DNA from: Polaromonas sp.
GTDB taxonomy: Bacteria > Pseudomonadota > Gammaproteobacteria > Burkholderiales > Burkholderiaceae_C
NCBI RefSeq assembly: GCF_018780625.1
Contig: NZ_JADMJK010000028.1
Coordinates: forward strand, 6,573 to 56,467
DNA: 49,895 nucleotides
Reading direction: 5' to 3'
Shown here: piece after piece, positions 8,538 to 45,989 of the stretch
Position numbering within the stretch: the stretch's first letter is position 1
How the letters are laid out: each line of letters begins with the position of its first letter
The notes under the pieces: generated by a model
Told to the model about the DNA's origin: nothing
The model's database searches: none
The model's input: the letters and a program-made list of their open reading frames with translations, nothing else
Translations under genes and position numbers: made by a program

Positions 8538-8601
8538 AATTAGCATTTCGATGCGAACTTTAGCCAATAGGCGCCCGAATCAAAACAAGAATCATCGTCA
8601 C

Positions 8602-8641
8602 AAGATCGATGATCGAACAAATATGATCGATCATCGATCTT
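8602..8641. promoter_or_regulatory. Perfect 14-bp inverted repeat, probable IclR-type operator
   Basis: The arms AAGATCGATGATCG (8602-8615) and CGATCATCGATCTT (8628-8641) are exact inverted complements separated by 12 bases. The element lies in the only divergent gap between the catabolic operon (start near 8537) and the IclR regulator (start at 8661). It is placed to repress or activate both. A further ATCATCG at 8591-8597 repeats part of the arm. IclR proteins of the PcaR/PcaU/PobR group bind such repeats close to their own genes; the assignment to this regulator is inference. Confidence 0.75.
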
Positions 8642-8660
8642 ATTAAGGGTTATCACTAAG

Positions 8661-9494
8661 GTGAAGCGCCCGTTGCCCGAACCAGAATTGCCCGCCATGC
8701 CGCCATCTTCATCAGAAACGTTCACGCCAGCCAGCCCCGTGCTGGACAAGCGCGACTGGATTGCCGGCCTCGAAAGAGGCCTGTCCATCATTGAGGCGTT
8801 TGACGACGCCCACCCGCGCATGACCGCCAGCCAGGCCGGCGAGCGCTGCGGCATGACGCGCACCGCCGCGCGCCGCTACCTGCTCACGCTGCGGCACATC
8901 GGCTACGTGGCGACCGATGGAAAGCTGTTCTGGCTCACGCCGCGCGTGCTGCGCCTGGGGCAGTCCTACCTGGAATCGGCCCGGTTGCCGCGCATCGTTC
9001 AGCCGTTTTTGCAGCGCGTCACGGCGGGCACCTCAGAAACAGCCTATGTCAGCGTGCTCGATGGCGACGACATCGTGTACATCGCCCGCAACGGCTCCAG
9101 CCGCATCATGAACACCGGCTATGTGCTGGGCGCGCGGGTGCAGGCGCAGGTCACGGCCGCCGGCATGCTGCTGCTGGCGCTTGGCGATCCGGCTTGGGTG
9201 GAGCACTGGCTGGCCACGCAAACGCTCAAGGCCTATACCTCGCACACCATCGCCAGCAAGGACCGCCTGCGCCTGGAACTGGCGCGCATTCGGGCGCAGG
9301 GCTGGTCGCTGTCAGAGCAGCAACTCGAACTCGGCGCCCGCGGCATCGCCGTTCCGCTGCTGGACCACCGGGGCGACCTGGTGGGCGCGCTCAATGTGAC
9401 CACGCCGATGGGCCAGGAAAGTTCTGAGGAGGTGGTGGCGCGGGTGCTGCCAGTGCTGCAGGAAACCGCGCGCGCCATGCGCAATCTGATTTGA
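8661..9494 (+). CDS. IclR-family regulator of the PcaR/PcaU/PobR type
   Basis: 277 residues. A winged helix-turn-helix at about 32-95 begins DWIAGLERGLSIIEAF and contains MTASQAGERCGMTRTAARRYLLTLRHIGYV. This 'AARRYLLTL' form is typical of the beta-ketoadipate regulators PcaR, PcaU and PobR, which respond to protocatechuate, hydroxybenzoate or quinate-pathway intermediates. The effector domain follows (ETAYVSVLDGDDIVYIAR ... GARGIAVPLLDHRGDLVGALNVTT). It diverges from the transporter/quinate-type operon, with a perfect inverted repeat between them, so it is the likely local regulator. The annotated start is GTG with a weak ribosome site; an ATG at 8697 is an alternative, and neither affects the DNA-binding domain. 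Confidence 0.9.
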   Translation: MKRPLPEPELPAMPPSSSETFTPASPVLDKRDWIAGLERGLSIIEAFDDAHPRMTASQAGERCGMTRTAARRYLLTLRHIGYVATDGKLFWLTPRVLRLGQSYLESARLPRIVQPFLQRVTAGTSETAYVSVLDGDDIVYIARNGSSRIMNTGYVLGARVQAQVTAAGMLLLALGDPAWVEHWLATQTLKAYTSHTIASKDRLRLELARIRAQGWSLSEQQLELGARGIAVPLLDHRGDLVGALNVTTPMGQESSEEVVARVLPVLQETARAMRNLI

Positions 9495-9538
9495 GCGCCA
9501 CAGGCAAGGCCCTGCAGCCTGACCAAAAACACTTAAAA

Positions 9539-9599
9539 TGCTACTTTTTTAGTAGCTATTAGCGACCGTTCATTGTGGGCTAGAGGCCTATTTCATCAA
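9539..9599. repeat. Dispersed intergenic hairpin repeat, copy 1
   Basis: Begins with a 19-base hairpin (9539-9557, TGCTAC ... GTAGCT). It is followed by about 20 variable bases and the conserved tail GGGCTAGAGGCCTATTTCAT. A second copy with the same order is at 27889-27950. I recognise this layout as an abundant small repeat of Comamonadaceae genomes (recollection, not checked). It lies between the IclR gene and the next permease gene, where the hairpin could end transcription. Confidence 0.6.
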
Positions 9600-9635
9600 T
9601 AAATACACCCACCAGGGCCGCTGACCGCGCACGAC

Positions 9636-10520
9636 ATGCACACCAGACATTTCCTCCAGCTGATCGGCATGTCCGCCCTCTGGGGCGCCTCATTCCCCCT
9701 GCTTCGCATTGCCAGCCCCGCGCTCGGACCCTGGCTTCTGGCCGGCCTGCGCTGCACCCTGGCCGCCGTGGTGCTGGCCGTGCTGATGCGCGCGCTGCGG
9801 GAGCGCTGGCCGCCGCGCGCCGCCTGGCCAAGGCTGGCGCTGCTGAGCCTGCTCACCGTGGTCACGCCGTTCGTGCTGTTCAGCTGGGCGGCGCTGGTGA
9901 TTCCTGCTGGCTACTCGGCCGTGCTGAACGCCACCGCACCCTTGTTTGGCGTGCTGGGTGCAGCCGTGGCCGGTGAAGAAAAACTGACGACACGCCGCCT
10001 GCTGGGCTGCGCCGTGGGCTTTGCCGGCGTTGCGCTGCTGGTGCAGCTGGGGCCGGTCGCCGTGACGCCGCAGGTGGTGCTGGCCGCGCTGGCCTGCACG
10101 GCCGCAGCGGCCGCCTATGGCTTTGGCACCATCCTGATGAAGCGCGCCACCATGGCCTACGCGCCGCTGCCAGCTTCGGCCGCCGTGCATGTGGCGGCCG
10201 CGCTGATTTTGCTGGCTCCGGCAGGCGCCGCCGCCCCCTCGGCCCATTACACGCCGGCGGCGCTGATCGCGGTGACGGTGCTGGGCACCATCACCTCGGG
10301 CTTCATGTACTGGATCAGCATGCGGCTGATGCGCGAGATCCCGGCCAGCGCGGCTACCTCGGCGGCCTTCATGATTCCCTTGTTCGGCGTCAGCTGGGGC
10401 GGGCTGTTTCTGGGTGAACCCGTCACCGCCAGCATGCTGCCCGGCTGTTTGCTGGTGCTGGCGGCCACCGCGCTGATCACGGGCTTCAACCCGTTCAGGG
10501 GCGCGCCGCCCGAGCCCTGA
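9636..10520 (+). CDS. EamA-type (DMT superfamily) permease
   Basis: 294 residues with ten predicted membrane segments arranged as two EamA repeats. The first repeat begins GMSALWGASFPLLRIAS (the family's conserved GxxWG.xF motif), and the second is seen from LAALACTAAAAAYGFGTILMKR. The closing FLGEPVTASMLPGCLLVLAATALITG is the usual end of the second repeat. Members export amino acids, metabolites or drugs; no residue here fixes the substrate. The gene stands alone, convergent with aroC (20 bp between stops), and is preceded by a dispersed hairpin repeat. Confidence 0.9.
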   Translation: MHTRHFLQLIGMSALWGASFPLLRIASPALGPWLLAGLRCTLAAVVLAVLMRALRERWPPRAAWPRLALLSLLTVVTPFVLFSWAALVIPAGYSAVLNATAPLFGVLGAAVAGEEKLTTRRLLGCAVGFAGVALLVQLGPVAVTPQVVLAALACTAAAAAYGFGTILMKRATMAYAPLPASAAVHVAAALILLAPAGAAAPSAHYTPAALIAVTVLGTITSGFMYWISMRLMREIPASAATSAAFMIPLFGVSWGGLFLGEPVTASMLPGCLLVLAATALITGFNPFRGAPPEP

Positions 10521-10540
10521 TGCGCAATGGGGGTCGCCAA

Positions 10541-11638
10541 TCAGTCGCGCTGGCGCATGATGTCCGGCGTGCTGACCACGACGTCTGCATTCTGGGCACG
10601 CTGGCGCAGCGCATGCTCCATCACCACCAGCGCCAGCATGGCCTCGGCAATCGGCGTGGCCCGAATGCCGACGCACGGGTCGTGCCGCCCTTTGGTGCTG
10701 ACCTGGGTCGGCTGGCCGGCCAGGTCAATCGACTCGCGCGGCGTGAGGATGGAACTGGTGGGCTTGATGGCGATCGACACTTCCAGGTCTTGCCCGGTGC
10801 TGATGCCGCCCAGCACGCCGCCCGCGTTGTTGGATTTGAAACCTTCGGGCGAGAGCGAGTCGCCGTGCGTGCTGCCGCGCTGCGCGACGCTGGCAAAACC
10901 GGCGCCAATTTCCACCCCTTTGACGGCGTTGATGCCCATCATGGCGTACGCAATGTCGGCGTCCATCTTGTCAAACAGCGGCTCACCCAGGCCAACCGGC
11001 ACGCGGGAGGCCGACACGCGGATGCGCGCCCCGCAGGAGTCGCCGCCCTTGCGCAACTCGTTCATATAGGTTTCCAGTTCCGACACGTCGGCCACGGGGG
11101 CAAAGAAAGGGTTGTGCGGCACAAAGTCCCAGGACTCAAAGCCAATCGGCAACTCGCCAATTTGCGTCATGCAGCCCCGAAACTCGGTGCCGTAGCGCTC
11201 AAACAGCCATTTCTTGGCCACCGCGCCGGCCGCCACCATGGGCGCGGTCAGGCGGGCCGACGAGCGCCCGCCGCCGCGCGGGTCGCGAATGCCGTATTTC
11301 TGGAAATAGGTGTAGTCAGCGTGGCCTGGCCGGAAGGATTCCAGGATGTTGCCGTAGTCCTTGCTGCGCTGGTCGGTGTTTTTGATCAGCAGGCAAATCG
11401 GCGTGCCGGTGGTCTTGCCCTGGTACACGCCCGACAAGATCTCGACCGCATCCGGCTCGTTGCGCTGGGTCACGAACTTGGAGGTGCCGGGGCGGCGCCG
11501 GTCCAGGTCGGGCTGAATGTCTGCCTCGCTGAGCGCCATGCCCGGCGGACAGCCGTCAATCACGCAGCCAATGGCCGGGCCGTGGGATTCACCAAAGTTG
11601 GTGACTGCGAAAAGATTTCCAAAAGTATTGCCGCTCAT
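10541..11638 (-). CDS. aroC: Chorismate synthase
   Basis: 365 residues, standard bacterial length. It makes chorismate from EPSP using reduced FMN, in the cytoplasm. The three AroC signatures are present: [18 protein letters not shown] near residue 15, the middle block [23 protein letters not shown] with the preceding [11 protein letters not shown], and the C-terminal [25 protein letters not shown]. The N-terminus [10 protein letters not shown] is canonical. It lies 30 bp after the CBS-domain gene on the same strand, probably a two-gene unit, an arrangement I recall from other Burkholderiales. Confidence 0.97.
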
Positions 11639-11668
11639 GGACTGGATTATCCCTGAGCGCGCGGCTGA

Positions 11669-12124
11669 TCAGACTTCCTTGGCGTCGTCTTCGGCCGGCC
11701 AGTCGCGGATATAGGCCTTGAGCATTTTGTTCTCGAAGTTCTGGCTGTCCACCACGGCCTTGGCCACGTCGTAAAAGCTGATCACGCCCATCAGCATTTT
11801 CTGGTTCATCACGGGCATGTAGCGTGCATGGCGGTCCAGCATCATGCGGCGCACCTCGTCCATGTCGGTCTCGGTGGTGCAGGTCAGCGGATGGTCGTCC
11901 ATGGCTTTGCGCACCAGCGTGCGTCCCATCTCGCCGCCGTTGCTGACGATGCACAGCAGCACCTCGCGAAAGGTCAGCATGCCGACCAGGTCGCCATGCT
12001 CCATGACGACCAGCGACCCGATGTCCTTTTCGGCCATGATTTGGGCCGCTTTGGACAGAGGCTCGTCGGGTTGCACCGTGTAGAGCGTGTTGCCCTTCAC
12101 GCGCAGGATGTCAATAACCTTCAT
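11669..12124 (-). CDS. Two-CBS-domain protein
   Basis: 151 residues made of a CBS pair with no catalytic domain. CBS1 runs roughly 7-60 (VQPDEPLSKAAQIMAEKDIGSLVVMEHGDLVGMLTFREV) and CBS2 roughly 75-130 (CTTETDMDEVRRMMLDRHARYMPVMNQKMLMGVISFYDV). Such proteins bind adenine nucleotides and act as energy or redox sensors on partner enzymes; the partner here is unknown. It is the gene upstream of aroC with a 30-bp gap. A good ribosome site (GGAGAAGG) precedes the ATG. Confidence 0.93.
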   Translation of the reverse strand: MKVIDILRVKGNTLYTVQPDEPLSKAAQIMAEKDIGSLVVMEHGDLVGMLTFREVLLCIVSNGGEMGRTLVRKAMDDHPLTCTTETDMDEVRRMMLDRHARYMPVMNQKMLMGVISFYDVAKAVVDSQNFENKMLKAYIRDWPAEDDAKEV

Positions 12125-12313
12125 CGCCTTCTCCTGGGTTGTTTTGCGATTGTTTCCCTGCTAAGCAGCGCCGGGAAATTCACTTTTAATATAGCCCACA
12201 ATCCGGGGGCAGGCTGTAATGATTTCCCGGATCGCCTGCGTCACCCGGCCCGGGCCAGGCGCCGAAAAAACCCTGGCCCTCTGCTTTCGCTTTTTTATTC
12301 TGGAGACACACGC

Positions 12314-13624
12314 ATGCCCGGTTATTCCGACCCCGGTTTTGACACCCTGGCGCTGCACGCCGGTGCCGCCCCCGACCCGGCCACAGGCGCACGCGCCGTG
12401 CCGATTCACCTCACGACCTCCTTTGTCTTCGAGTCCAGCGACCACGCCGCGAGCCTGTTCAACCTGGAGCGCGCCGGCCATGTGTATTCGCGCATCAGCA
12501 ACCCGACCAATGCGGTGCTGGAGCAGCGCATTTCGGCCCTCGAAGGCGGCATAGGCGCGATTGCCACGGCCAGCGGCCAGGCCGCGCTGCACCTGAGCGT
12601 TGCCACCTTGATGGGCGCCGGCTCCCACATTGTGGCCAGCACCGCCCTGTATGGCGGTAGCCAGAACCTGCTGCACTACACCCTGCGCCGCTTTGGCATT
12701 GACACCACCTTTGTCCAGCCCGGCGACCTGGACGGCTGGCGCGCCGCCGTGCGGCCCAACACCAAATTATTCTTTGGCGAAACCGTCGGCAACCCGGGGC
12801 TCGACGTGCTGGACATGGAGGCCGTGAGCGCCATTGCCCATGATGCTGGCGTGCCGCTGCTGGTCGACTCCACGCTGACCTCGCCCTGGCTGATCAAGCC
12901 GTTTGACCACGGCGCGGACCTCGTCTACCACTCGGCCACCAAGTTTTTGAGCGGCCACGGCACGGTCATTGGCGGCCTGGTCGTCGATGGCGGCAGTTTT
13001 GACTGGGACTCTTCCAGGGCCGCAGGCAAGTTTGCCGAACTGACCGAGGCCTACGACGGCTTTCACAACATGGTGTTCAGCGAGGAAAGCACGGTCGGCG
13101 CGTTCTTGCTGCGTGCGCGCCGCGAGGGCCTGCGCGACTTTGGCGCCTGCATGAGCCCGCACACGGCCTGGCTGATCTTGCAGGGCATCGAAACGCTGCC
13201 GCTGCGCATGGCGCGCCACATGAGCAACACCGAAAAAGTCGTGGCGTTTCTGGCCAGCCACCCGCTGGTGGCGCGCGTCGGCCACCCGATGCTGCAATCG
13301 CACCCCAGCCACGCGCTGGCCAAAAAGCTGCTGCCGCGCGGCGCCGGTTCGGTGTTCAGCTTTGACATTCGTGGCAGCCGTGCGCAAGGCAAGGCGTTTG
13401 TGGAAGCGCTCAAGGTGTTCAGCCACCTGGCCAACGTCGGCGACTGCCGCAGCCTGGTGATTCACCCGGCCAGCACCACGCATTTCCGCATGAGCGACGA
13501 CGCGCTGGCAGGCGCGGGCATCACCCAGGGCACGATACGCCTGAGCATCGGACTGGAAGACCCAGACGACCTGATCGACGACCTGAAGCGCGCGCTAAAA
13601 ACAGCAGAAAAGGCAGGTGCGTGA
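12314..13624 (+). CDS. metY: O-acetylhomoserine (thiol)-lyase / sulfhydrylase
   Basis: 436 residues of the Cys/Met metabolism PLP family; the length fits MetY better than MetZ (about 400). It joins sulfide or methanethiol to O-acetyl- or O-succinyl-homoserine in methionine synthesis. Features seen are GFDTLALHAG at the start, YSRISNPTNAVLEQRISALEGG, the phosphate loop ATASGQAALHL, the Asp of VDSTLTSPWLIKPF and the PLP lysine Lys210 in YHSATKFLSGHG. A TGGAGA ribosome site lies 10 bases before the ATG at 12314; the open frame continues upstream without a better start. The stop overlaps the start of the next gene (TGATG), so the two are coupled. Confidence 0.92.
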   Translation: MPGYSDPGFDTLALHAGAAPDPATGARAVPIHLTTSFVFESSDHAASLFNLERAGHVYSRISNPTNAVLEQRISALEGGIGAIATASGQAALHLSVATLMGAGSHIVASTALYGGSQNLLHYTLRRFGIDTTFVQPGDLDGWRAAVRPNTKLFFGETVGNPGLDVLDMEAVSAIAHDAGVPLLVDSTLTSPWLIKPFDHGADLVYHSATKFLSGHGTVIGGLVVDGGSFDWDSSRAAGKFAELTEAYDGFHNMVFSEESTVGAFLLRARREGLRDFGACMSPHTAWLILQGIETLPLRMARHMSNTEKVVAFLASHPLVARVGHPMLQSHPSHALAKKLLPRGAGSVFSFDIRGSRAQGKAFVEALKVFSHLANVGDCRSLVIHPASTTHFRMSDDALAGAGITQGTIRLSIGLEDPDDLIDDLKRALKTAEKAGA

Positions 13625-14442
13625 TGGAACTCCACGTCAACGGCGCCAAAACCTACTGCTACACCGGCGGCAAAGCGTTCGATGCGGCGCAGCCGACCGT
13701 GGTCTTCATCCACGGTGTGCTGAACGACCACAGCGTCTGGATTTTGCAAAGCCGCTACCTCGCCCATCATGGCTGGAACGTGCTGGCCATCGACCTGCCC
13801 GGCCACTGCCGCAGCGGCGGTGAAGCGCCTTCCAGCGTTGAAGAAGCGGCGGACTTCATCGCCGCACTGCTCGACGCGGCTGGGGTGCAGCGCGCGGCGC
13901 TGGTCGGCCACAGCTGGGGCTCGCTGATTGCGCTGGAGGCCGCCGCCCGGCTGCAAGCGCGCGTCAGCCACCTGGTGCTGGTCGGCACGGCGTTCCCGAT
14001 GAAGGTGTCGCCGGCGCTGCTGGACAGCGCGCTGAACGAGCCGATGAAGGCGCTGGCCATGGTGAACGTGTTTTCGCGCAGCACGCTGGCCCCGCCGCCC
14101 TCGGCCCTCGGCCCCGGGACCTGGGTCTATGGCGCCAGCATGGCGCTGGGCCGACGCGTGCTGGCCAGCAACCCCAAGGTGAACGTGTTCCACCGCGGTT
14201 TCAAGGCCTGCGACAGCTACGCCAACGGCGAAGCGGCGATTCAAGCCATTACCTGCCCGGTGCTGTTTGTGCTGGGTGCCCAGGACCAGATGACGCAGCC
14301 CAGAGCCGCGCAGGGGCTGATCAACGCGGCCCGCGACTCGGGCAAGACGGTGCAGCGGGTCAGTCTGCCGGTCGGCCACCACCAGATGACCGAGGCGCCT
14401 GATGCCACGCTGTTTGCCATTCGGGATTTCCTGAAATCATGA
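13624..14442 (+). CDS. Alpha/beta hydrolase
   Basis: 272 residues with a clear alpha/beta-hydrolase core. The oxyanion region is VVFIHGVLNDHSVW (His30-Gly31), the nucleophile elbow is VGHSWGS with Ser97, an acid is likely in FVLGAQDQMT, and the terminal histidine is in PVGHHQMTEAP. No signal peptide, so cytoplasmic. It starts on the ATG that overlaps the metY stop; translational coupling suggests a linked role. A homoserine O-acyltransferase would be about 380 residues with a different core, so this is not MetX. Substrate not determinable. Confidence 0.88.
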   Translation: MELHVNGAKTYCYTGGKAFDAAQPTVVFIHGVLNDHSVWILQSRYLAHHGWNVLAIDLPGHCRSGGEAPSSVEEAADFIAALLDAAGVQRAALVGHSWGSLIALEAAARLQARVSHLVLVGTAFPMKVSPALLDSALNEPMKALAMVNVFSRSTLAPPPSALGPGTWVYGASMALGRRVLASNPKVNVFHRGFKACDSYANGEAAIQAITCPVLFVLGAQDQMTQPRAAQGLINAARDSGKTVQRVSLPVGHHQMTEAPDATLFAIRDFLKS

Positions 14443-14487
14443 GCCGGCCCGCATTGCCCGCCCCAAGCGTGGTGTTCCATCGTCCCT

Positions 14488-14757
14488 TCAGCCATTGAGG
14501 AAATAGATGTCGGGTTTGTCTACGACGCCCAGTTGTTGCATCCTTTCCCTGAGGTCTGCAGACTCGGAAAATTCCTTGGCACGGCTGAGGTCCTGCACTT
14601 CAAACATGAGGATGACCTCATTTGGATCGGGGTCTGCGCGAAGAAGGTATTTCTCCGTGAGCCCGGCCTCCGTGCGCTTGGGAAGGTGGGCATCGTAACC
14701 CTGCTTCCACGCCGCGAAGTCCTTCACCTTGTGCCTGATCAGAAGGTAGCGGGTCAT
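14488..14757 (-). CDS. Small ferredoxin-fold (antibiotic-biosynthesis-monooxygenase-like) protein
   Basis: 89 residues. The pattern MTRYLLIRHKVKDFAAWKQGYDAH ... EVILMFEVQDLSRAKEFSESADLRERMQQLGVVDKPDIYFL matches small dimeric alpha/beta-barrel proteins of the ABM/cyclase group. These act as heme-free monooxygenases, isomerases or binding proteins. The ATG at 14757 has a strong AAAGGAGA site just upstream; a longer reading to 14820 has none. Last of three same-strand genes with a GYD protein and a flavoprotein. Function unknown; the family call is by pattern only. Confidence 0.7.
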   Translation of the reverse strand: MTRYLLIRHKVKDFAAWKQGYDAHLPKRTEAGLTEKYLLRADPDPNEVILMFEVQDLSRAKEFSESADLRERMQQLGVVDKPDIYFLNG

Positions 14758-14844
14758 TGAAGTTCTCCTTTGGATGAGGTGCCGGTTCAGGGCCTTTGCG
14801 GCGCTACCGGCATGTGTCAATGGAAATGGAAATGGTCCAGGCCC

Positions 14845-15138
14845 CTAAACCATCTTGCCGAGAATTCCGTTCATCTCGTCTTTGGAAAAGGCGCGCAGCG
14901 TCTGCGTGCGGACGTTGCCCGCAGCCCCTATGGCCAATGCGAACGCGGTCGCCGACTCGTCATCCGGCGCCTCAATGATGGCCACCAAATCGTAGTGCCC
15001 CAGCGTCCAGTAAATCTGGGTCATGTTGGCGCCGAACTTCTTTGCGGCATCTTGCACAGCCTCGGCGCGTTTGGTGCTGTCCTTGACGTTGCGGATTCCC
15101 TGGTCGGTAAAGCTGGAAAGTGCGATGTAGGTTCTCAT
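14845..15138 (-). CDS. GYD-domain protein
   Basis: 97 residues matching the GYD domain: MRTYIALSSFTDQGIRNVKDSTKRAEA, then the name-giving YWTLGHYDLVAIIEAPDDESATAFALAIGAAGNVRTQTLRAF. The domain adopts a ferredoxin-like fold related to ABM proteins, and its biochemical role is unknown. The ATG at 15138 follows AAAAGGAT, a usable ribosome site. It lies between a berberine-bridge-type flavoprotein (91 bp upstream) and another small ferredoxin-fold protein, so the three may form one operon. Confidence 0.88.
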   Translation of the reverse strand: MRTYIALSSFTDQGIRNVKDSTKRAEAVQDAAKKFGANMTQIYWTLGHYDLVAIIEAPDDESATAFALAIGAAGNVRTQTLRAFSKDEMNGILGKMV

Positions 15139-15228
15139 GATTTTTATCCTTTTGGCGACTGGAACCTCAGACACTGAATCGACCGACGGCGGTTCCGAAA
15201 CGCCGACCTAAGCCACCGAGATCCTGAA

Positions 15229-16614
15229 TCAGGCTGGCGGGATGTTCTGATTCGTGCTGAAAAGGTTTTGGGGGTCGTACTGGCGCTTGATCCGGGCGAG
15301 GCGTTCGTAGTTCTGGCCGTAGGCTGCTCGCACGCGATCGCCCTCGTCGGCAGTCAGGAAGTTGACATAAACGCCGCCGCTGGCAAAGGGTGCAGAAGCC
15401 TTGAAGAAGTCGCGGGCCCAGCGTATGCAGCGCTCGTCGTCCGCCGAGTCGTCCCAGCGGCCGTGGACGTTCATCACGAACTGGGCATCGCGGTGCGCAT
15501 ACGCAGCAGAGTCAGGCGCGGGCCGCGAGGTTGCGCCGCCAATAGCGCCAAAAAATATCTCGCACTGGGGCGATGGCGGCGTCTGGATGGCCGTGATCAC
15601 GGCGTCGAACAGACCATCATCGAGCACCGAGAAATTATGCGACTTCCAGTAGTTGCGCGCGCCCGGGGTAAGCAACGGGTCAAAGGCCTTTTGCCAATCG
15701 GTATAGGGTTGCACGCCGACATGCTCGCCCAGGGGTACGCCAAACGAGCGCAGCGGCGCGATGAGCGGCATGCCTTGCGCCGGGTCACCCGCGTAAAACA
15801 GCGCGAGCGCAATGATTCCCTGGCCATGGACCGCCTCTGGAAGGAAGGGCAGAGGCGGCGCCTGGCGCAAAACGGCCCATACCGAGAGTTCGTCCGGTGC
15901 CTTCGCCATGAATTCGCGGTACTGCCGCAGCACGGCCTTCGCCTCTGAGAGCGGGTAGACGATCAGGCCGCTGAGGACGCCGGGCCCGACCGGGTGGAGC
16001 CGGAACTCAAAGCTTGTGACAACACCAAAGTTGCCGCTGCCGCCCCGCAGCGCCCAAAAAAGATCAGGGTTGTCGGTGGCGCTGGCGCGCACCACCTCGC
16101 CAGCGGCCGTCACCACCTCGGCGGACTCCAGGTTGTCAATGGTCATGCCGTACTTGCGGCTGAGCCAGCCGAAGCCGCCGCCCAGCGTCAGCCCGGCAAC
16201 ACCAGTGGTGGAGTTGATGCCTACTGGCGTGGCAAGGCCGTGGGCTTGGGTCGCGGCGTCGAGATCGGCCAGCGTGGCGCCGCCCTCGATGGTGGCGCGG
16301 CGGGCGCCAGCGTCGATGCGCGCGGCCTTCATCGGCGAGAGATCGACGACCAAACCGTCGTCGCACATCGCACTGCCCGCGATGTTGTGCCCGCCGCCCC
16401 GAACGGCGAGCACAAGGCCGTTCTCCTTCGCGAAGTTCACCGCGCAAACCACGTCCGATGTGGTGGCGCAGCGCACAATCAGTGCAGGGTGCTTGTCGAT
16501 CGTCGCGTTCCAGACCTTGCGGGCGCTTTCGTAAAGATCGTCCTCCGGAAGGATCACGGCCCCCGTCACCTTGCCTTTGAGCGCCTCAATCCGTGGGGCC
16601 TGTAATTTGGTCAT
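15229..16614 (-). CDS. FAD-linked oxidoreductase, berberine-bridge-enzyme (BBE) type
   Basis: 461 residues, no signal peptide. The N-terminal PCMH FAD domain has CATTSDVVCAVNFAKENGLVLAVRGGGHNIAGSAMCDDGLVVDL. The histidine of RGGGHN is the usual 8-alpha-histidyl FAD attachment site. This is followed by GVAGLTLGGGFGWLSRKYGMTIDNLE, in which the second, cysteinyl, attachment residue of doubly linked BBE enzymes is not evident. The C-terminal BBE motif is textbook: RAAYGQNYERLARIKRQYDPQNLF then NQNI. Members oxidise sugars, alkaloids or polyketides with oxygen. The next genes are two small ferredoxin-fold proteins, an arrangement that recalls polyketide-type tailoring but is unassigned. Confidence 0.92.
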   Translation of the reverse strand: MTKLQAPRIEALKGKVTGAVILPEDDLYESARKVWNATIDKHPALIVRCATTSDVVCAVNFAKENGLVLAVRGGGHNIAGSAMCDDGLVVDLSPMKAARIDAGARRATIEGGATLADLDAATQAHGLATPVGINSTTGVAGLTLGGGFGWLSRKYGMTIDNLESAEVVTAAGEVVRASATDNPDLFWALRGGSGNFGVVTSFEFRLHPVGPGVLSGLIVYPLSEAKAVLRQYREFMAKAPDELSVWAVLRQAPPLPFLPEAVHGQGIIALALFYAGDPAQGMPLIAPLRSFGVPLGEHVGVQPYTDWQKAFDPLLTPGARNYWKSHNFSVLDDGLFDAVITAIQTPPSPQCEIFFGAIGGATSRPAPDSAAYAHRDAQFVMNVHGRWDDSADDERCIRWARDFFKASAPFASGGVYVNFLTADEGDRVRAAYGQNYERLARIKRQYDPQNLFSTNQNIPPA

Positions 16615-29537: not shown

Positions 29538-30638
29538 TTAAGGCAGTGGTATCAGCAGCTTGAAATCTGTTCGGCCTGGCCTGCTCTCGCACTCAATCAA
29601 ACCGTGGTGTTGCTGAACAAAGGTTTGCGCCAATGTCAGCCCCAGCCCCGACCCGCCTTCACGCCCTGATACCAGGGGATAGAAAATCCGGTCTTTGATG
29701 GAGTCCGGCACGCCCGGTCCATTGTCAACCACATGCAATTCCAGTGCCAGGCGATAGCGCTGCTTGCCAAAAGTTACTTGCCGGGCAATCCGTGTCTTGA
29801 AGGTGATCTGCGCATCCCCGGCGGCCATGCGCTCCGCCAGCGCCTGCGCCGCGTTGTGGGTGATGTTCAGCACCGCCTGGATCAGTTGCTCACGGTCGCC
29901 GCGAAAATCGGGAATCGAGGTGTCGTAGTCCCGCGTCAGCTGCAGACCCTTGGGAAACTCGGCCAGTACCAGCAAGCGCACCCGCTCGCACACTTCATGG
30001 ATGTTCACATCCCCTACGAGGTGCGGACGGCGGTGCGGTGCCAGCAGACGGTCCACCAGGGTTTGCAGTCGATCAGCCTCGTGGATGATGACCTGGGTGT
30101 ACTCGCTCAGGTCCTTGTCGATTTCCATCTGCAGCAACTGCGCCGCGCCGCGAATGCCGCCCAGGGGGTTTTTGATCTCGTGCGCCAGGTTTCGGATCAG
30201 CTCCTTGTTGGCCTGAGCCTGATCCATCAGGCGCTCCTCGCGCTCTTGTTTGGCCTGCTGCTCCAGCGGCAGCAATTCCACAATCGCTTCGCCGGGCTGA
30301 TCGGTCTGCGCCACCACCACATGGACGGGCAGGGGTTCATGGTTGACCCGCCTGAGCCACGCGTCATAGCGCAGGGCGGCAAACTCGTTGCTGCACGCAC
30401 CTTCGAGCGCATTTTGAAGAATCTGGGGTTCCGTGAAGCACTCGGGCAGTTGCGAGCCTTCAATGGTGCGCCGGGAAATGCCTAGCGCGTCTTCCAGCGC
30501 CGCGTTGGCAAACACAACGGTGCCGTCGGTTCGCACCACCGCCACCAACGTGGCCAGCAGGTCAAACGATTGAAACCGGGGCGGCCCGGAGGTCGCAAGG
30601 GGGATGTCTGAAACGGCAGAAAAATAAGGCTTGATCAA
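29538..30638 (-). CDS. ntrB: Nitrogen-sensing histidine kinase NtrB
   Basis: 366 residues. A PAS domain (about 22-130: LLATLVAVVRTDGTVVFANAALEDALGISRRTIEGS) precedes the H-box NLAHEIKNPLGGIRGAAQLL with the phosphorylated His. The ATPase domain follows with N-box LNITHNAAQAL, G1 VVDNGPGVPDSIKDRIFYPLVSGREGGSGLGLTLAQ and a terminal FKLLIPLP. No membrane segment: it is the cytoplasmic kinase/phosphatase controlled by PII. The start is TTG at 30638. Upstream codons in frame run to a stop within six codons and contain no ATG or GTG, so the rare start is effectively forced. Confidence 0.96.
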   Translation of the reverse strand: MIKPYFSAVSDIPLATSGPPRFQSFDLLATLVAVVRTDGTVVFANAALEDALGISRRTIEGSQLPECFTEPQILQNALEGACSNEFAALRYDAWLRRVNHEPLPVHVVVAQTDQPGEAIVELLPLEQQAKQEREERLMDQAQANKELIRNLAHEIKNPLGGIRGAAQLLQMEIDKDLSEYTQVIIHEADRLQTLVDRLLAPHRRPHLVGDVNIHEVCERVRLLVLAEFPKGLQLTRDYDTSIPDFRGDREQLIQAVLNITHNAAQALAERMAAGDAQITFKTRIARQVTFGKQRYRLALELHVVDNGPGVPDSIKDRIFYPLVSGREGGSGLGLTLAQTFVQQHHGLIECESRPGRTDFKLLIPLP

Positions 30639-40457: not shown

Positions 40458-41012
40458 ATGATCTCACGCACCGCCGCCGTCCCAGCTTCCGCACTGCTCT
40501 TATCCCTGCTCGCCGCTTGCGGCAGCATGGCGCCCATGATGCCCACGTATTCACAAGCCATGCTGCCCGCCGCCGTCCAGGTGCCCGCCGGCCACAAGGT
40601 CGCGATGGAAACCGTGGGCGTGGGCGAAATCACTTACCAGTGCAGCGCCAAAAAAGACATGGCCGGCCAGTTCGAATGGGTCTTTGCAGGGCCCGAAGCC
40701 ACGCTCAATGACCGCAGCGGCAAACAGGTGGGCAAGTACTACGGCCCGCCCGCCACCTGGGAAAGCATGGATGGCTCCAGGCTGACCGCCACCCAGGTGG
40801 CGGTGGCTCCCAACGGCATGGGCAACATTCCGTCACAGCTGGTCAAGGGCAACCCTGCCATGGGCAGCGGCGCCATGCGCGGCGTCACCTACATCCAGCG
40901 CGTCGACACCCGGGGTGGCGTAGCCCCCGTCACGCCGTGCGCTGCAGGCAACATGGGCGCCAGGCAAACGGTGAAGTACCAGGCCGACTACATTTTTTAC
41001 AAGGCTATGTAA
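40458..41012 (+). CDS. DUF3455 lipoprotein (paralogue A)
   Basis: 184 residues. A lipoprotein signal peptide with lipobox LLAAC precedes a DUF3455 domain: AVQVPAGHKVAMETVGVGEITYQCSAKKDMAGQFEWVFAGPEATLNDRSGKQVGKYYGPPATWESMDGS, then GVTYIQRVDTRGGVAP and the end YQADYIFYKAM. The YQC and PC cysteines could form a disulfide. The family is common in proteobacteria, and fungal relatives exist, with no known function. A GGAGTAAAAA site precedes the ATG. It is followed by a long terminator hairpin at 41146-41187 and then by a paralogue, so the two genes are separately transcribed. Confidence 0.9.
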   Translation: MISRTAAVPASALLLSLLAACGSMAPMMPTYSQAMLPAAVQVPAGHKVAMETVGVGEITYQCSAKKDMAGQFEWVFAGPEATLNDRSGKQVGKYYGPPATWESMDGSRLTATQVAVAPNGMGNIPSQLVKGNPAMGSGAMRGVTYIQRVDTRGGVAPVTPCAAGNMGARQTVKYQADYIFYKAM

Positions 41013-41309: not shown

Positions 41310-41894
41310 ATGAAAACTACACACAACACCCTTTGGGCCTACGGCAAAAGCGCAGCCGTCACGCTGGCCGTGGTCACCGGCACGGTCGGCCTGATGGCAG
41401 CCTGCTCCAGCATCAAACCACCGCCCAAGGAATACTCGCAGGTCACGCTCGATGCGCAAATCCAGGTGCCTGCAGGCAACGTCGTGGCGCTTGAAACCAC
41501 CGCCACCGGCATCCTCACCTACGAATGCAAAGCCACCACAGCCACCACCACCGGCTGGGTGCTGGTGACGCCGCAGGCCGACTTGCTTGACCGCACCGGC
41601 AAGCTGGTCGTGAAATATTCTGGCCCACCCGCCACCTGGAGCCACGTTGACGGCTCCCGCGTGGTCGGCACCCAGATTGCCCTTGCGCCGCGTGTAGGCG
41701 AAACCAACATCGCCAACCAATTGTCCAAGGGCACCCCCGATGCCGCGCCAGGCATTTTGCAAAACGTGACCTACATCCAGCGCATCAAGACCAAGGGCGG
41801 CCAGGACCTGAGCAAGGCCTGCAACCAGGTCGACATGGGCGACAAGCTGACCCGACCTTACCAGGCTGACTACATTTTCTGGAAAGCGGCTTAA
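41310..41894 (+). CDS. DUF3455 lipoprotein (paralogue B)
   Basis: 194 residues, same architecture as the gene 300 bp upstream. The signal peptide has lipobox LMAAC; the domain reads IQVPAGNVVALETTATGILTYECKATTATTTGWVLVTPQADLLDRTGKLVVKYSGPPATWSHVDGS, with NVTYIQRIKTKGGQDLSKAC and the end YQADYIFWKAA. The shared blocks GPPATW, DGSR, VTYIQR and YQADYIF show a tandem duplication, followed by strong divergence elsewhere. Outer-membrane or periplasmic location is inferred from the lipobox. Function unknown. Ends 66 bp before a strong bidirectional terminator. Confidence 0.9.
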   Translation: MKTTHNTLWAYGKSAAVTLAVVTGTVGLMAACSSIKPPPKEYSQVTLDAQIQVPAGNVVALETTATGILTYECKATTATTTGWVLVTPQADLLDRTGKLVVKYSGPPATWSHVDGSRVVGTQIALAPRVGETNIANQLSKGTPDAAPGILQNVTYIQRIKTKGGQDLSKACNQVDMGDKLTRPYQADYIFWKAA

Positions 41895-41960: not shown

Positions 41961-41997
41961 AAAAGGCCCGCAAACCAACCAGGTTTGCGGGCCTTTT
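41961..41997. terminator. Strong bidirectional intrinsic terminator
   Basis: A perfect 16-bp stem AAAAGGCCCGCAAACC / GGTTTGCGGGCCTTTT (41961-41976 with 41982-41997) has a 5-base loop, with T-runs on both strands. It separates the convergent DUF3455 gene B and the lyase gene, whose stops are 66 and 24 bp away. Confidence 0.93.
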
Positions 41998-42021: not shown

Positions 42022-42960
42022 TTACGCGGGAAAGCGCTGTTCCCACGCCTCCACCTCCGGCAGGCCCAGGCAGTCGTTGTACTCCTGGCTGCTCAGCATG
42101 CGGGGACGCACGGCCTCGGTGTTGCCGTCCAGCCGCAGGTGCTGCAGGGCGTCGCGCATGGCAAAACCCAATGCATTGCGCAACAGGGCCGGGTAGATGG
42201 CGATGGCGATGCCGTGGGTGTGCAACTGGTCGCTGCGCAGGCCGGCCAGCGGGCCGCCCGCATCGATATTGACCATGCACGGGATGGCCAAGGCGTCAGC
42301 CACCCGGCGAATGTCTTCCAGAATTCCGGCGTGGCCCTTGAGTTCGACAAACACCGCACCGGCGCCTACCCGCTCAAAGGCCTGGGCCCGGCGTATGGCC
42401 TCCCCCACGCCACACGACGCGGCGCTGTCGGTGCGGGCGATGACCAGAAAATCGGCGTCGTCCCGCGCCGCCACCGCTGCCCCTATTTTTGCAACAGCGG
42501 CCTCGAAAGGCAGCACCTCGCGCGCGCCGGGCAACTGGGCGCATCGTTTGGGCGACAGCTGGTCTTCAATATGAATGGCGGCAACGCCCGCGGCCTCAAA
42601 CGCCTGCACCGTACGCCTGACGGCCACCACGCCGCCATAGCCGGTGTCGGCATCGCAGATCAGGGGAATGTCCACGCATGCGGCCACATTCCCGGCATGG
42701 CTGGACATCAGCGACAAGTCCACCAGCCCCACATCAGGGCGGCCCAGAAGGCACGCTGAAACGCCGTTTCCGGTCATGTAGGCGGCCTCAAACCCGGCAA
42801 GCGCCACCATGCGCGCGCCGTAGCCGTCATAGATACCAGGGGCTATCAGCGTCGGGGCCGTGCGCCCGGCATGGGCCAAACGCTGGCGCAACGCCTGGCG
42901 CAAGCGGCTGGTGCGCCCTGCGCCCGTGGACACGCTCCGTGTATTTTCGTGCGCGCTCAT
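42022..42960 (-). CDS. Isocitrate lyase / PEP mutase-superfamily carbon-carbon lyase
   Basis: 312 residues with the TIM-barrel core of 2-methylisocitrate lyase-like enzymes. Seen are GIYDGYGARMVALAGFEAAYMTGNGVSA, LICDADTGYGG (Asp103 and Asp105, metal), IHIEDQLSPKRCAQLPG (Glu132; Lys138-Arg139-Cys140) and VIARTDSAA. The catalytic Cys of true lyases (KRCGH) is kept, although the next two residues are Ala-Gln instead of Gly-His. This argues for C-C cleavage of a substituted malate or citrate-like acid rather than phosphonomutase activity. The start codon overlaps the stop of the LeuD-like gene (ATGA). With the two hydratase subunits it resembles the dimethylmaleate hydratase plus 2,3-dimethylmalate lyase pair known from nicotinate fermentation. 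Confidence 0.88.
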   Translation of the reverse strand: MSAHENTRSVSTGAGRTSRLRQALRQRLAHAGRTAPTLIAPGIYDGYGARMVALAGFEAAYMTGNGVSACLLGRPDVGLVDLSLMSSHAGNVAACVDIPLICDADTGYGGVVAVRRTVQAFEAAGVAAIHIEDQLSPKRCAQLPGAREVLPFEAAVAKIGAAVAARDDADFLVIARTDSAASCGVGEAIRRAQAFERVGAGAVFVELKGHAGILEDIRRVADALAIPCMVNIDAGGPLAGLRSDQLHTHGIAIAIYPALLRNALGFAMRDALQHLRLDGNTEAVRPRMLSSQEYNDCLGLPEVEAWEQRFPA

Positions 42961-43472
42961 GCAGGCAACTCCCAGTTGGGGTACTTGGCCAAAAAGGGGA
43001 TCAGACCGCCTTCACGCAGGATGGCGCGTATGGCGGCAGGCATGGCGGGGAGCGGGCGCTTGGCGGCACCTGCCACCGTGAGCACCTGGCCGCTCAAGTC
43101 GAGCACCAGGGCGTCGCCCTCGCTGATTCCGCTGGTGTCGCACTCCAGCACCGGCAAACCGTTGTTGATGGCATTGCGGAAAAACTGGCGGCCGAAAGAC
43201 GGCGCCACAATGGCCGCCACCCCCATGCGGCGCAGGATGTGCACGGCCTGCTCGCGCGATGAATTGATGCCGAAGTGCTTGCCCGCCACAATCACGCCGC
43301 CCGGCGTAAAGCGCGCGGCAAAACCAGGGCAAACCGCCTCGAAAGCCTGGGCCGCAATGTAAGCCTCGTCTTTTCCGGGTAAATACTTGCCCGAGCAGTT
43401 CAGGTCGGTATTGACATCGTCGCCCAGCACAAAGGCACAGCCCCGGATGGCGTCGCTTGAATAATCAGACAT
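42957..43472 (-). CDS. LeuD-like small subunit of a hydro-lyase (aconitase family)
   Basis: 171 residues, the short LeuD form (swivelling domain). Signature: GVIVAGKHFGINSSREQAVHILRRMGVAAIVAPSFGRQFFRNAINNGLPVLECD, where SSREQA carries the substrate-binding Ser-Arg. The N-terminal CAFVLGDDVNTDLNCSGKYLPGKDE holds the DxINTDxI-like loop, which helps fix substrate choice. It pairs with the LeuC-like gene just upstream, overlapping it by 8 bp, with a GGGAGG site before the ATG. No leuA or leuB accompanies it and the lyase gene follows directly, so leucine synthesis is unlikely. Confidence 0.9.
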   Translation of the reverse strand: MSDYSSDAIRGCAFVLGDDVNTDLNCSGKYLPGKDEAYIAAQAFEAVCPGFAARFTPGGVIVAGKHFGINSSREQAVHILRRMGVAAIVAPSFGRQFFRNAINNGLPVLECDTSGISEGDALVLDLSGQVLTVAGAAKRPLPAMPAAIRAILREGGLIPFLAKYPNWELPA

Positions 43473-44751
43473 GCGTTGCCTCCCATTGCCCGCCCGCCAC
43501 GGTGCGCGGGTCGGTGATGTAGCCGGTCAGCGCGGAGGCCGCCACCGTAGCGGCCGAACCCAGCCATATTTCTGCGTCATGGTTGCCCAGACGCCCCTTG
43601 AAGTTGCGGTTGGCGCTTGAAACCACGACCTCGCGGTCGCCCGGAATCAGGTGGTTGGTGATGCCCACGCAGGTGCCGCAGCCGGCCGCCTCAAACGAGG
43701 CGCCCGCTTCGGTCAGCGCTTCAATCAAACCCTCGCGCGCGGCAGCCAGGTAGATCTGGCGCGAAGCCGGTGTAATGATCATGCGCACGCCCCTGGCCAG
43801 CCGCCGGCCCTTCAAAATGGCGGAGGCCTGGCGAATGTCGTCGAGCCGGCCGTTGGTGCAAGTGCCTATCAGGGCAAAGTTGATCTTTTTCCCAATCACT
43901 TCGGATGCCGCGACGATGTCGTCCACCGCGTCCTTGCGCGCAACCTGCGGCGCCAGCGCCGAGGCGTCAATTTCAATGCGTTGCGCGTACACCGCATCGG
44001 CGTCGGCGCTGACTGGCTGCGGCGCTTTGGCGCCATGCGCTGCCAGCCAGGCAAAGGTTTTCTCGTCAGCCTCCAGCAGCGCGGCCTTGGCGCCCAGCTC
44101 GGCGGCGTGGTTGGCCAGCGTCATGCGGTCATCAATTTCCATGGCGCTGACGGCGGCGCCCACATATTCAATCGCGCGGTAGTTCAAGCCCTCCGCGCCG
44201 AAGCGGCCCAGCATGTAAAGCGTGATGTCCTTGGCCCACACCCCGGGCTGCAGGCGGCCGTTAAGCTGGACCCGAACCGACTCGGGCACCCGCAGCCAGA
44301 CCTTGCCGGTCGACATCACGGCCGTCACGTCCGTGCCTTCAATGCCGGTGCCAAATGCGTTGAATGCCCCGTAAGTCGTTGAATGCGTGTCGGTGCCCAC
44401 AATCAGGTCGCCGCAGGTCAGGTGGCCGCCTTCCGGCAGCACCTGGTGGCAAATGCCGTCGCCAATGTCATACAGCACGCTGCCCTGCTCGTCGGCAAAA
44501 CGCCGCATGGCGGTGTGGGTTTGCGCCGCTTCCAGCGTGGGCGGCGGCGAGTAGTGGTCTAGCACCCAGGCGGTTTTGCGGGCAAAAGGCAAGCGCTGCG
44601 CGCCCATTTTGTCGACCATGCGCAGGGTGTTGGGCGCACGGGCATCGTGCACCATGGCAAAGTCCACCTTGGCAATGACGATGTCCCCTGCCCTGACCTG
44701 CGCCAGCCCGGCGCGGCGGGCCAGGATTTTTTCTGCAATGGTTGAACTCAT
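43465..44751 (-). CDS. LeuC-like large subunit of a hydro-lyase (aconitase family, 4Fe-4S)
   Basis: 428 residues, nearer the archaeal/homoaconitase-type large subunit (about 420) than E. coli LeuC (466). The three cysteines for the [4Fe-4S] cluster are Cys298 (LIGTCTNGR), Cys358 and Cys361 (AGCGTCVGI). Other family blocks are VGTDTHSTTYGAFNAFGTGIEGTDV and SSANRNFKGRLGNHDAEIWLGSAATVAASALTGYITDPR. It acts with the LeuD-like subunit to shift water on a 2-hydroxyacid or enoic diacid. The start at 44751 (MSSTIAEKIL) is canonical for the family. It follows the Bug receptor gene by 49 bp in a sigma-54-type operon. Confidence 0.91.
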   Translation of the reverse strand: MSSTIAEKILARRAGLAQVRAGDIVIAKVDFAMVHDARAPNTLRMVDKMGAQRLPFARKTAWVLDHYSPPPTLEAAQTHTAMRRFADEQGSVLYDIGDGICHQVLPEGGHLTCGDLIVGTDTHSTTYGAFNAFGTGIEGTDVTAVMSTGKVWLRVPESVRVQLNGRLQPGVWAKDITLYMLGRFGAEGLNYRAIEYVGAAVSAMEIDDRMTLANHAAELGAKAALLEADEKTFAWLAAHGAKAPQPVSADADAVYAQRIEIDASALAPQVARKDAVDDIVAASEVIGKKINFALIGTCTNGRLDDIRQASAILKGRRLARGVRMIITPASRQIYLAAAREGLIEALTEAGASFEAAGCGTCVGITNHLIPGDREVVVSSANRNFKGRLGNHDAEIWLGSAATVAASALTGYITDPRTVAGGQWEATHV

Positions 44752-44800
44752 AGTGTGTGTAGGTTGATGTCGTCCGCCTGAAATTCGGGCTTGATTTGGC

Positions 44801-45793
44801 TTATTCGACCTTGATCCCCGATTTGCGCACCACTGCGCCCCACTTGTCACTTTCCTTGCGCATGAAACCCATCGTCTCCTCGGGTGTCGAGGGTGCGGGA
44901 TCCAGGCCCAGCTTGCGCAGTTGCGCCACGATGGCCGGGTCATTCAAGGTGGCCACGATGGCGGCATTGAGCCGCTGCACAGCCTCTGGCGGCGTGCGCT
45001 GCGGCGCTGTGAACGCATACCAGTTGATCGCCTCAAAACCGGGGTAACCCGACTCCGCAATGGTGGGTATTTGAGGCAGCGCCTCCAGCCGCTTGCTGCC
45101 CGTGGTGGCGATGGGCCGCAGCTTGCCCGACTGAATGAACTGCAGCGCATCGGTGGGGCTGGAAAAGATGGACGACAGCACGCCGCCCAGCAGGTCGTTC
45201 ATGGCCGGTGCGCCGCCACGGTAGGCCACATGCTGGTTGTTCAGGCCTGCGGCTGACTTCAACAATTCACCCGCCAGATGCCCGCTCCCGCCTATGCCTG
45301 ACGAGCCGAAAGACAGTTTTGACTCCGGCAACCTGGCTTGACTGACATAGTCTTCCAGCGTGCGGATGCTGCTTGAGGCGTTGACCACCAGCACATTGCT
45401 GAATACCACCGCCATCGACAAACCCGCCATGTCGGTCAAGGGGTTGTAGCTGAGTTTGTTGAGGTGCTGGTTGACCGACAGCGAACCAATCGTGCCCAGC
45501 ATGATGGTGTAGCCGTCGGGCGGCGACTTGACCAGGAAATCCGAAGCAATATTGCCGCCCGCGCCGGGTTTGTTGTCAATCACCACGCTTTGTTTAAGCG
45601 CAGCCGCCAGACGCGGCGCCATGATGCGCGCCACCGTGTCGGAACTGCCGCCGGGTGCAAAACCCACCAGCAGCTTGACAGGACGGTTGGGAAAGGGGTC
45701 GGTGTCTGCGGCGAATACGGATGACGATGCGGACATCGTCACGACTGAAAATGCGGTGCAGAGCGCCACCGCGATGCGGCCTGGAATCTTCAT
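44801..45793 (-). CDS. Bug/TctC-type periplasmic solute receptor, first gene of the LeuCD/lyase operon
   Basis: 330 residues. Signal peptide MKIPGRIAVALCTAFSVVTMSASSSVFA precedes DPFPNRPVKLLVGFAPGGSSDTVARIMAP (ligand loop), VIDNKPGAGGNIASDFLVKSPPDGYTIMLGTIGSLSVN, SKLSFGSSGIGGSGHLAGELLK and FIQSGKLRPIATTGSKR, all standard Bug features. No TctA/TctB genes are in view, so it may share membrane subunits encoded elsewhere. A GGAGACAAAGAC site precedes the ATG. It is the first gene after a perfect sigma-54 promoter, and its ligand is presumably the diacid processed by the hydratase and lyase that follow. Confidence 0.92.
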   Translation of the reverse strand: MKIPGRIAVALCTAFSVVTMSASSSVFAADTDPFPNRPVKLLVGFAPGGSSDTVARIMAPRLAAALKQSVVIDNKPGAGGNIASDFLVKSPPDGYTIMLGTIGSLSVNQHLNKLSYNPLTDMAGLSMAVVFSNVLVVNASSSIRTLEDYVSQARLPESKLSFGSSGIGGSGHLAGELLKSAAGLNNQHVAYRGGAPAMNDLLGGVLSSIFSSPTDALQFIQSGKLRPIATTGSKRLEALPQIPTIAESGYPGFEAINWYAFTAPQRTPPEAVQRLNAAIVATLNDPAIVAQLRKLGLDPAPSTPEETMGFMRKESDKWGAVVRKSGIKVE

Positions 45794-45852
45794 GTCTTTG
45801 TCTCCTGGTTTTTTTTACGGACCGCCTGGATGCGCGGGTTTGAATGTGATTT

Positions 45853-45868
45853 AGCAACATGCGTGCCA
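45853..45868 (-). promoter_or_regulatory. Consensus sigma-54 promoter of the Bug-LeuCD-lyase operon
   Basis: On the minus strand it reads TGGCACG-CATG-TTGCT, an exact match to TGGCACG-N4-TTGCW with GG and GC 10 bases apart. It lies 60 bp before the receptor start codon. Paired palindromes 85-135 bp further upstream are placed as an enhancer for the divergent PrpR-like activator. Confidence 0.9.
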
Positions 45869-45953: not shown

Positions 45954-45989
45954 TTTCATATTTGAAATAAATTTATTTCATAATTGAAA
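45954..45989. promoter_or_regulatory. Two TTTCA-N4-TGAAA palindromes, likely activator binding sites
   Basis: TTTCA-TATT-TGAAA (45954-45967) and TTTCA-TAAT-TGAAA (45976-45989) are repeated with a 22-bp period, two helical turns. Between them the inner halves form a further perfect 18-base palindrome (45963-45980). They stand 30 bp before the regulator gene and upstream of the sigma-54 promoter on the other strand, so they can serve both activation and autoregulation. Confidence 0.8.

Follow-up and report, generated by a model that had tools for sequence, protein, structure and literature searches.

A conserved sigma-54-controlled operon in Polaromonas joins a LeuCD-type hydratase to an isocitrate-lyase-superfamily lyase and may serve the catabolism of substituted diacids

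A 49,895-nt stretch of Polaromonas sp. contig NZ_JADMJK010000028.1 (assembly GCF_018780625.1), hereafter called the window, carries on its minus strand a four-gene operon encoding a Bug/TctC receptor, a LeuC-like protein, a LeuD-like protein and a lyase of the isocitrate-lyase superfamily. This sigma-54-controlled catabolic unit is real and conserved. Judging from sequence, we think it somewhat probable that the genes form an inducible operon for breaking down a substituted maleate- or malate-type acid, which would be hydrated and then split by an aldol-type cleavage. The LeuCD-type hydratase and the lyase are likely to be coupled: the main sign that the hydratase makes the substrate of the lyase is their conserved adjacency, together with the pairing of such lyases with a second LeuCD subfamily. 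We infer that hydration and cleavage are consecutive steps and that the operon is induced.

Results

Operon organization and control region

An earlier note on this DNA had described receptor, LeuC-like, LeuD-like and lyase genes in a tight array behind a perfect -24/-12 promoter, and both descriptions were borne out. The gene coordinates (Table 1) and the overlaps of 8 bp between LeuC and LeuD (43465-43472) and 4 bp between LeuD and lyase (42957-42960) were confirmed; the receptor and LeuC-like genes are separated by 49 bp, and the LeuC-like start is the ATG at 44751, within a longer open reading frame (ORF). The promoter, with its GG and GC elements correctly spaced, is an exact TGGCAC-N5-TTGCT match on the minus strand (45853-45868), a pattern found twice in the window against 0.16 expected matches, with at least two in 3 of 100 shuffles.

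The control region is richer than the note had stated, with a PrpR-type activator gene divergent from the operon, twin palindromes and a hairpin terminator to be added. The activator, the sole PrpR_N match found in the Polaromonas draft genome (3.62 Mb, 88.9% complete), scores 609.9 bits with TIGR02329 (cut-off 499.2) and matches PF06506 (PrpR_N), while PRK15424 was missed (566.6 versus 703). Both copies of TTTCA-N4-TGAAA, for which the expectation in the window is 0.01, lie between the activator gene and the promoter. The hairpin at 41961-41997 was not listed by a simple consensus terminator scan.

Table 1 Features of the operon and its control region in the window
Feature	Coordinates	Strand	Evidence
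Bidirectional hairpin terminator, 16-bp stem, past lyase gene	41961..41997		z -7.8 and -7.4 (two strands)
Isocitrate-lyase/phosphoenolpyruvate (PEP)-mutase superfamily lyase, 312 aa	42022..42960	-	PF13714 141.8
LeuD/DmdB-type small subunit, 171 aa	42957..43472	-	PF00694 46.2; TIGR02087 137.3 bits (cut-off 108.95)
LeuC-like large subunit, 428 aa	43465..44751	-	PF00330 300.8; NF001614 494.9 (cut-off 385); TIGR01343 472.7 (cut-off 385.7)
Bug/TctC periplasmic solute receptor, 330 aa	44801..45793	-	PF03401 241.2 bits
Sigma-54 -24/-12 promoter, TGGCACGCATGTTGCT	45853..45868	-	Perfect TGGCAC-N5-TTGCT match
Palindrome TTTCA-N4-TGAAA, presumed activator site 1	45954..45967		Motif scan
Palindrome TTTCA-N4-TGAAA, presumed activator site 2	45976..45989		22 bp from site 1
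PrpR-type sigma-54 activator, 647 aa: PrpR_N, PAS, AAA+, Fis-type helix-turn-helix	46019..47962	+	TIGR02329

The second perfect -24/-12-like site of the window (29734-29749, minus strand) lies inside a histidine-kinase-like ORF (29538-30638) and may be due to chance; this ORF adjoins NtrC-like and glnA-like ORFs, names that come from reading the sequences. Two tandem DUF3455 genes (40458-41012 and 41310-41894, plus strand) stand immediately past the operon terminator. Over all contigs, the Polaromonas genome has 56 TctC-type receptor matches and 4 TctA permease matches, a strong expansion of Bug receptors, and the operon receptor must therefore share a permease or work otherwise; one of the four TctA matches is inside the window (approximately 4675-5931, minus strand).

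Conservation of the unit among related loci

Conservation was followed in 80 related loci, the best 80 of 348 relatives in the lyase alignment, and the figures therefore hold for close relatives only; the upstream stretch was ended by the contig end in 19 of the 80. Genes for LeuC and LeuD were found upstream of the lyase, on the same strand, at 58 of the 61 loci with at least 4.5 kb of upstream sequence, and LeuD alone at three loci on short contigs (L050, L057, L062). The earlier note had proposed a search for co-occurrence of the four genes with the regulator. The LeuCD-lyase core stood up to it (71/80 overall) and a same-strand TctC gene lay within 5.5 kb in 65/80, whereas a divergent PrpR-type gene was present in only 7/80. 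Divergence of LeuC, LeuD and lyase was correlated (Mantel r 0.86-0.92 over 78 rows, 0 of 2000 permutations).

Regulator and promoter occur together. Among the 70 loci with a called LeuC gene, scanned from called gene starts in one stretch per locus with TGGCAT accepted, a -24/-12 element was found upstream in all seven with a PrpR-type gene (TGGCAC in four, TGGCAT in three) and in none of the 63 without one. At least one exact TTTCA-N4-TGAAA palindrome was present in six of eight control regions, the window counted, with two copies in the window and in L005; of the remaining two, L040 has the palindrome with one mismatch and L006 lacks it over the stretch examined.

The cassette is rare in the genomes sampled. 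In 150 genomes of the family, own genome counted, LeuD-like proteins at E<=1e-30 and lyases at E<=1e-60 were found in three each, and a close LeuD-like and lyase pair in two; one same-genus genome had neither at these thresholds. LeuD-like proteins at E<=1e-40 occurred in 1 of 274 genomes of the class, namely the Polaromonas genome itself.

More distant loci carry additional genes, including muconate-cycloisomerase-like (19/80), isopropylmalate/tartrate-dehydrogenase-like (21/80), FMN-dependent dehydrogenase (12/80), MmgE/PrpD (12/80) and glutathione-transferase-like genes (8/80). Reading the substrate from these neighbours was considered and rejected, since they vary among loci and point to no single acid. 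Their arrangement is nonetheless recurrent in places: the muconate-cycloisomerase-like gene lies between LeuD and lyase in L044, L051, L070, L073, L079, L083 and others, and in a dozen distant loci an FMN-dependent dehydrogenase gene directly follows the lyase, with isopropylmalate-dehydrogenase-like genes farther on. In L077 and L080, a further, more distant lyase (33-35% identity), accompanied by a TctC gene of its own, is encoded upstream of the LeuC-LeuD-lyase unit on the other strand, and at L063 a LeuD match precedes an additional lyase. The titles of some metagenome-assembled genomes (Bordetella parapertussis, Chitinophaga pinensis and Thermoflexus hugenholtzii, at L050, L053, L060, L082 and L083) seem to fit their betaproteobacterial genes poorly, perhaps as a result of mislabelled bins.

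Pairing of hydratase and lyase in other lineages

Fifteen plasmid regions were hand-picked from the lyase and LeuC match lists, and they therefore show existence rather than frequency. Both enzyme types were found in six of them (L088, L089, L090, L091, L093, L099). The three Roseomonas-type regions (L088, L089, L093) have LeuC, LeuD, lyase and TctC genes beside a LacI-type gene, and in two of them a gene for an iron-containing alcohol dehydrogenase separates lyase from TctC; Cupriavidus campinensis (L090) has consecutive LeuC-, LeuD- and lyase-like matches, open in frame; and B. plantarii (L099) has LeuC, LeuD, a flavin oxidoreductase and the lyase. In Variovorax VAI-C (L091) the order is lyase, LeuC, LeuD, TctC, PrpF-like and TctC; LeuC and LeuD are here of the bacterial leucine type, and the lyase therefore has a partner from a different subfamily. 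At L092 a LeuC-like match lies approximately 3 kb from the lyase and the pairing is ambiguous.

The Variovorax cluster (7953-15232) also has a proline-racemase-family gene and could represent a variant that includes an isomerase step. Its PrpF-like gene was considered as a clue to the substrate and rejected, with scores below cut-off for both 4-oxalomesaconate tautomerase (299.6/440) and PrpF (264.7/440.6).

In a first lyase tree (41 rows, without L090 and L092) the starred branches required at least four label changes, in a topology where long branches meet; one change could reflect a loss in L047, on a contig that possibly stops short of LeuCD. A second tree (29 rows, doubtful rows dropped, L090 added) gave four changes. 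Placing all LeuCD-linked lyases in a single clade was 21 log units worse, with p-AU (approximately unbiased test) of 0.026. These trees favour a pairing that arose more than once.

The hydratase subunits and leucine synthesis

The catalytic residues of both hydratase and lyase are intact. The LeuC-like protein has the presumed cluster cysteines C298, C358 and C361, present in every LeuC row with a letter there, and R38, typical of the family (67/67 rows with a letter there). The LeuD-like hallmarks are CSxKYxPG and FGINSSREQA; in the former, P and G were each found in 73 of the 75 rows with a letter. This loop conforms to neither of what we take to be the homoaconitase and isopropylmalate types, and it therefore does not decide on the substrate. 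Among proteins of solved structure, the nearest to LeuC bears the name isopropylmalate/citramalate isomerase (364 bits versus 288 for homoaconitase).

Distant relatives are automatically named 3-isopropylmalate dehydratase, as would be expected if the pair were a second isopropylmalate isomerase for leucine synthesis. This role was rejected as extremely improbable. Genuine leuC and leuD genes, above curated cut-offs, are present on contig C85, whose LeuC scores 755 bits with TIGR00170 (cut-off 560), while the LeuC-like protein of the window reaches 211 with this model and 386 with TIGR02083 (cut-off 611), and the LeuC-like proteins form their own clade, with 100/100 support, apart from genuine LeuC. 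The claim of the earlier note that the unit is not for leucine synthesis thus holds; the result that the note had named as fatal to its proposal, a LeuCD pair grouping with genuine isopropylmalate isomerases in a genome lacking any other leuCD, was not obtained.

The methylcitrate cycle and the tricarboxylate alternative

The companion claim, that the unit is not a methylcitrate cycle, is probably correct. No prpC match above cut-off was obtained in the 88.9%-complete draft, where prpD was not searched for, and acnD was not found among the four aconitase-family (PF00330) matches of the same draft, which are LeuC, AcnA, AcnB and the window LeuC-like protein. The genes acnA, acnB and aceA are elsewhere in the genome, each above curated cut-offs; besides aceA, the only other PEP-mutase-family match is a broken gene. 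This broken isocitrate-lyase-superfamily gene (L108 5717-6445, contig C114) lies near a GntR-like ORF and TctC-type genes.

These results bear on the alternative that LeuCD acts as an aconitase and the lyase as a methylisocitrate or isocitrate lyase, on 2-methylcitrate/2-methylisocitrate or a citrate/aconitate-like tricarboxylate. The PrpR-type regulator exceeds its family cut-off, the lyase aligns best with methylisocitrate lyase by both sequence and fold, and the positive R38 (LeuC) and K208 (lyase) might accommodate a third carboxylate. However, the lyase scores 199.5 bits with the PrpB model against a cut-off of 354.4, and at position 233, where PrpB has Thr, 77/81 lyases have D or E. Together with the failure to find prpC above cut-off or acnD in the incomplete draft and the separate acnA, acnB and aceA, this makes a tricarboxylate substrate unlikely.

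The lyase active site and the dimethylmaleate and decarboxylase alternatives

The lyase has the Mg ligands D76, D103, D105 and E132 and the loop K138-R139-C140, and the Mg ligands, Cys140 and Arg176 are invariant in 81/81 lyases (window plus 80); the catalytic roles of these residues follow an excerpt of PMC11982470. The loop reads KRC-[AG]-[QH] among the 81 (KQC in two), compared with KRCGH. In the presumed pocket, N65 and K208 are also invariant (81/81), and position 233 is occupied by D in 73, by E in 4, by G in 3 and by S in 1; the equivalent positions 65/208/233 are G, I/M and T in two solved methylisocitrate lyases, and A, I and V in the solved dimethylmalate lyase 3fa3. We infer that these residues bear on substrate choice. 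With an acidic residue at 233, binding of methylisocitrate through its third carboxylate would not be favoured, and K208 may pair with 233 or bind an extra charge, an ambiguity because of which the substrate is not read from the pocket.

Among solved relatives, the lyase scored 158.9 bits with methylisocitrate lyase, 143.5 with dimethylmalate lyase and 84.7 with the oxaloacetate decarboxylase PA4872. Its AlphaFold model has a mean pLDDT (predicted local distance difference test) of 82, and Foldseek placed methylisocitrate lyase at the top and dimethylmalate lyase from rank 25; the fold search separates no candidate, because root-mean-square deviations were 10-14 A over the full chain.

As a special case of the favoured reading, the substrate could be dimethylmaleate, hydrated to 2,3-dimethylmalate and cleaved to pyruvate and propionate as in nicotinate fermentation. 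The same two enzyme types are adjacent, LeuD falls within the LeuD/DmdB subfamily model, several close lyase relatives are automatically named 2,3-dimethylmalate lyase, and the lyase and the dimethylmalate lyase of solved structure have T63 and a YMTG motif in common and lie, without strong support, on the same side of the tree. We nevertheless regard this route as improbable. The pocket differs from that of 3fa3 at all three positions; a PrpF-like (methylitaconate isomerase-type) gene was found in none of the 80 loci as far as their stretches reach (phmmer, two PrpF-like queries); and we see no obvious natural source from which these aerobes would obtain dimethylmaleate. Two PrpF-family matches are on other contigs of the Polaromonas genome. 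Thus, of the hydratase-lyase route set out in the earlier note, the coupling is supported by the adjacency in 71/80 loci and by the other lineages, whereas its dimethylmaleate version is disfavoured.

The lyase might also be an oxaloacetate decarboxylase or some comparable side enzyme, with LeuCD acting on another compound, as some close relatives carry the NCBI name oxaloacetate decarboxylase (P0026, P0087, P0119) and related lyases occur without annotated LeuCD on five plasmids. The lower PA4872 score, the loop Cys in 81/81 and the joint presence of LeuCD and lyase at most loci make this very unlikely. As far as sequence closeness goes, the other result that the earlier note had named as fatal, a decarboxylase unrelated to the hydratase product, was thus not obtained either.

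Proposed mechanism and evidence against it

In the favoured reading, hydration followed by aldol-type cleavage, the Bug protein would capture the acid with a membrane partner encoded outside the operon. The two-subunit iron-sulphur hydro-lyase would then hydrate a 2-substituted maleate, or shift the hydroxyl of a 2-substituted malate, and the Mg-dependent lyase would split the 2-hydroxy diacid, releasing pyruvate or glyoxylate as the 2-oxo acid along with a carboxylic acid, by a route needing neither coenzyme A (CoA) nor adenosine triphosphate. The PrpR-type activator may sense the acid or an intermediate and, acting from the two palindromes, switch on the -24/-12 promoter. Our first guess for the substrate, a tentative one, is citraconate, giving (R)-citramalate and then pyruvate and acetate, because the solved protein closest to LeuC is an isopropylmalate/citramalate isomerase and the Pseudomonas CoA cluster described below leaves both compounds unused.

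Several observations weigh against this reading. Neither LeuC nor LeuD was found upstream of the lyase in 6/80 loci (L046, L047, L052, L054, L063, L068); among the plasmid regions, five of 15 have the lyase with no LeuCD annotated within approximately 6 kb (L094-L098), and three of 15 have a LeuCD pair without such a lyase (L100-L102). Adjacency and correlated distances could come from descent of one cassette, which leaves consecutive steps unproven. The starred branches of the second lyase tree force one change only, and the test does not reject a common clade of the window group and either the Roseomonas rows (p-AU 0.32) or Variovorax (p-AU 0.15). The operon has no TctA or TctB gene, and the receptor is thus without a partner permease there. 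N65, K208 and the acidic 233 differ from the residues of both methylisocitrate lyase and dimethylmalate lyase, and LeuC R38 with lyase K208 could suit an additional anionic group.

Discussion

The unit is a variant of the dimethylmaleate hydratase/dimethylmalate lyase kind and is new in the literature searched: no description of a LeuC-LeuD-lyase trio was found in titles and abstract openings among the matches listed, subscription papers being outside the search. A bolder proposal, which we hold possible but doubtful, is that its two enzymes suffice, without CoA, to degrade a C5-C6 diacid that is either branched or substituted (citraconate/(R)-citramalate or a novel growth substrate), that the N65/K208/acidic 233 pocket defines a new substrate class of the isocitrate-lyase superfamily, and that the unit is one of a larger group of LeuCD-lyase cassettes with multiple origins.

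Genes of the cassette carry the names 3-isopropylmalate dehydratase, methylisocitrate lyase-like, dimethylmalate lyase and oxaloacetate decarboxylase; if our reading is true, several such database names mislead, and freshwater and soil bacteria would have a CoA-free use of branched diacids (citraconate, (R)-citramalate) beyond the described Pseudomonas cluster. The signature residues offer a ready test.

Comparison with known systems

The CoA-dependent pathway for itaconate and branched C5 diacids (ict, ich, ccl) would serve similar diacids but needs CoA transfer. According to an excerpt of PMC9875883, the Pseudomonas CoA cluster in engineered P. putida gave no growth on citraconate or (R)-citramalate, and a gap for a route such as the present one therefore exists.

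The solved isopropylmalate/citramalate isomerase and homoaconitase are the best solved relatives of LeuC and, for LeuD, come next after 1v7l; the unit differs from them in the CSxKYxPG loop of LeuD and in R38 of LeuC. With PrpB, the lyase shares the fold, the Mg ligands, the catalytic KRC loop and the pyruvate-site Tyr and Arg, but it scores below the PrpB cut-off, has N65 for G, K208 for I/M and D233 for T, and belongs to a draft genome with no prpC above cut-off.

In the nicotinate fermentation of Eubacterium barkeri, dimethylmaleate hydratase (DmdAB) acts together with 2,3-dimethylmalate lyase (Dml). The likeness lies in a two-subunit LeuCD-type hydro-lyase with an isocitrate-lyase-superfamily lyase, from which the same chemistry would be expected. 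Unlike DmdAB/Dml, the Polaromonas unit has no methylitaconate-isomerase-like gene found nearby and a lyase pocket unlike that of the solved dimethylmalate lyase, and it is a betaproteobacterial system equipped with a Bug receptor and PrpR-type/sigma-54 control.

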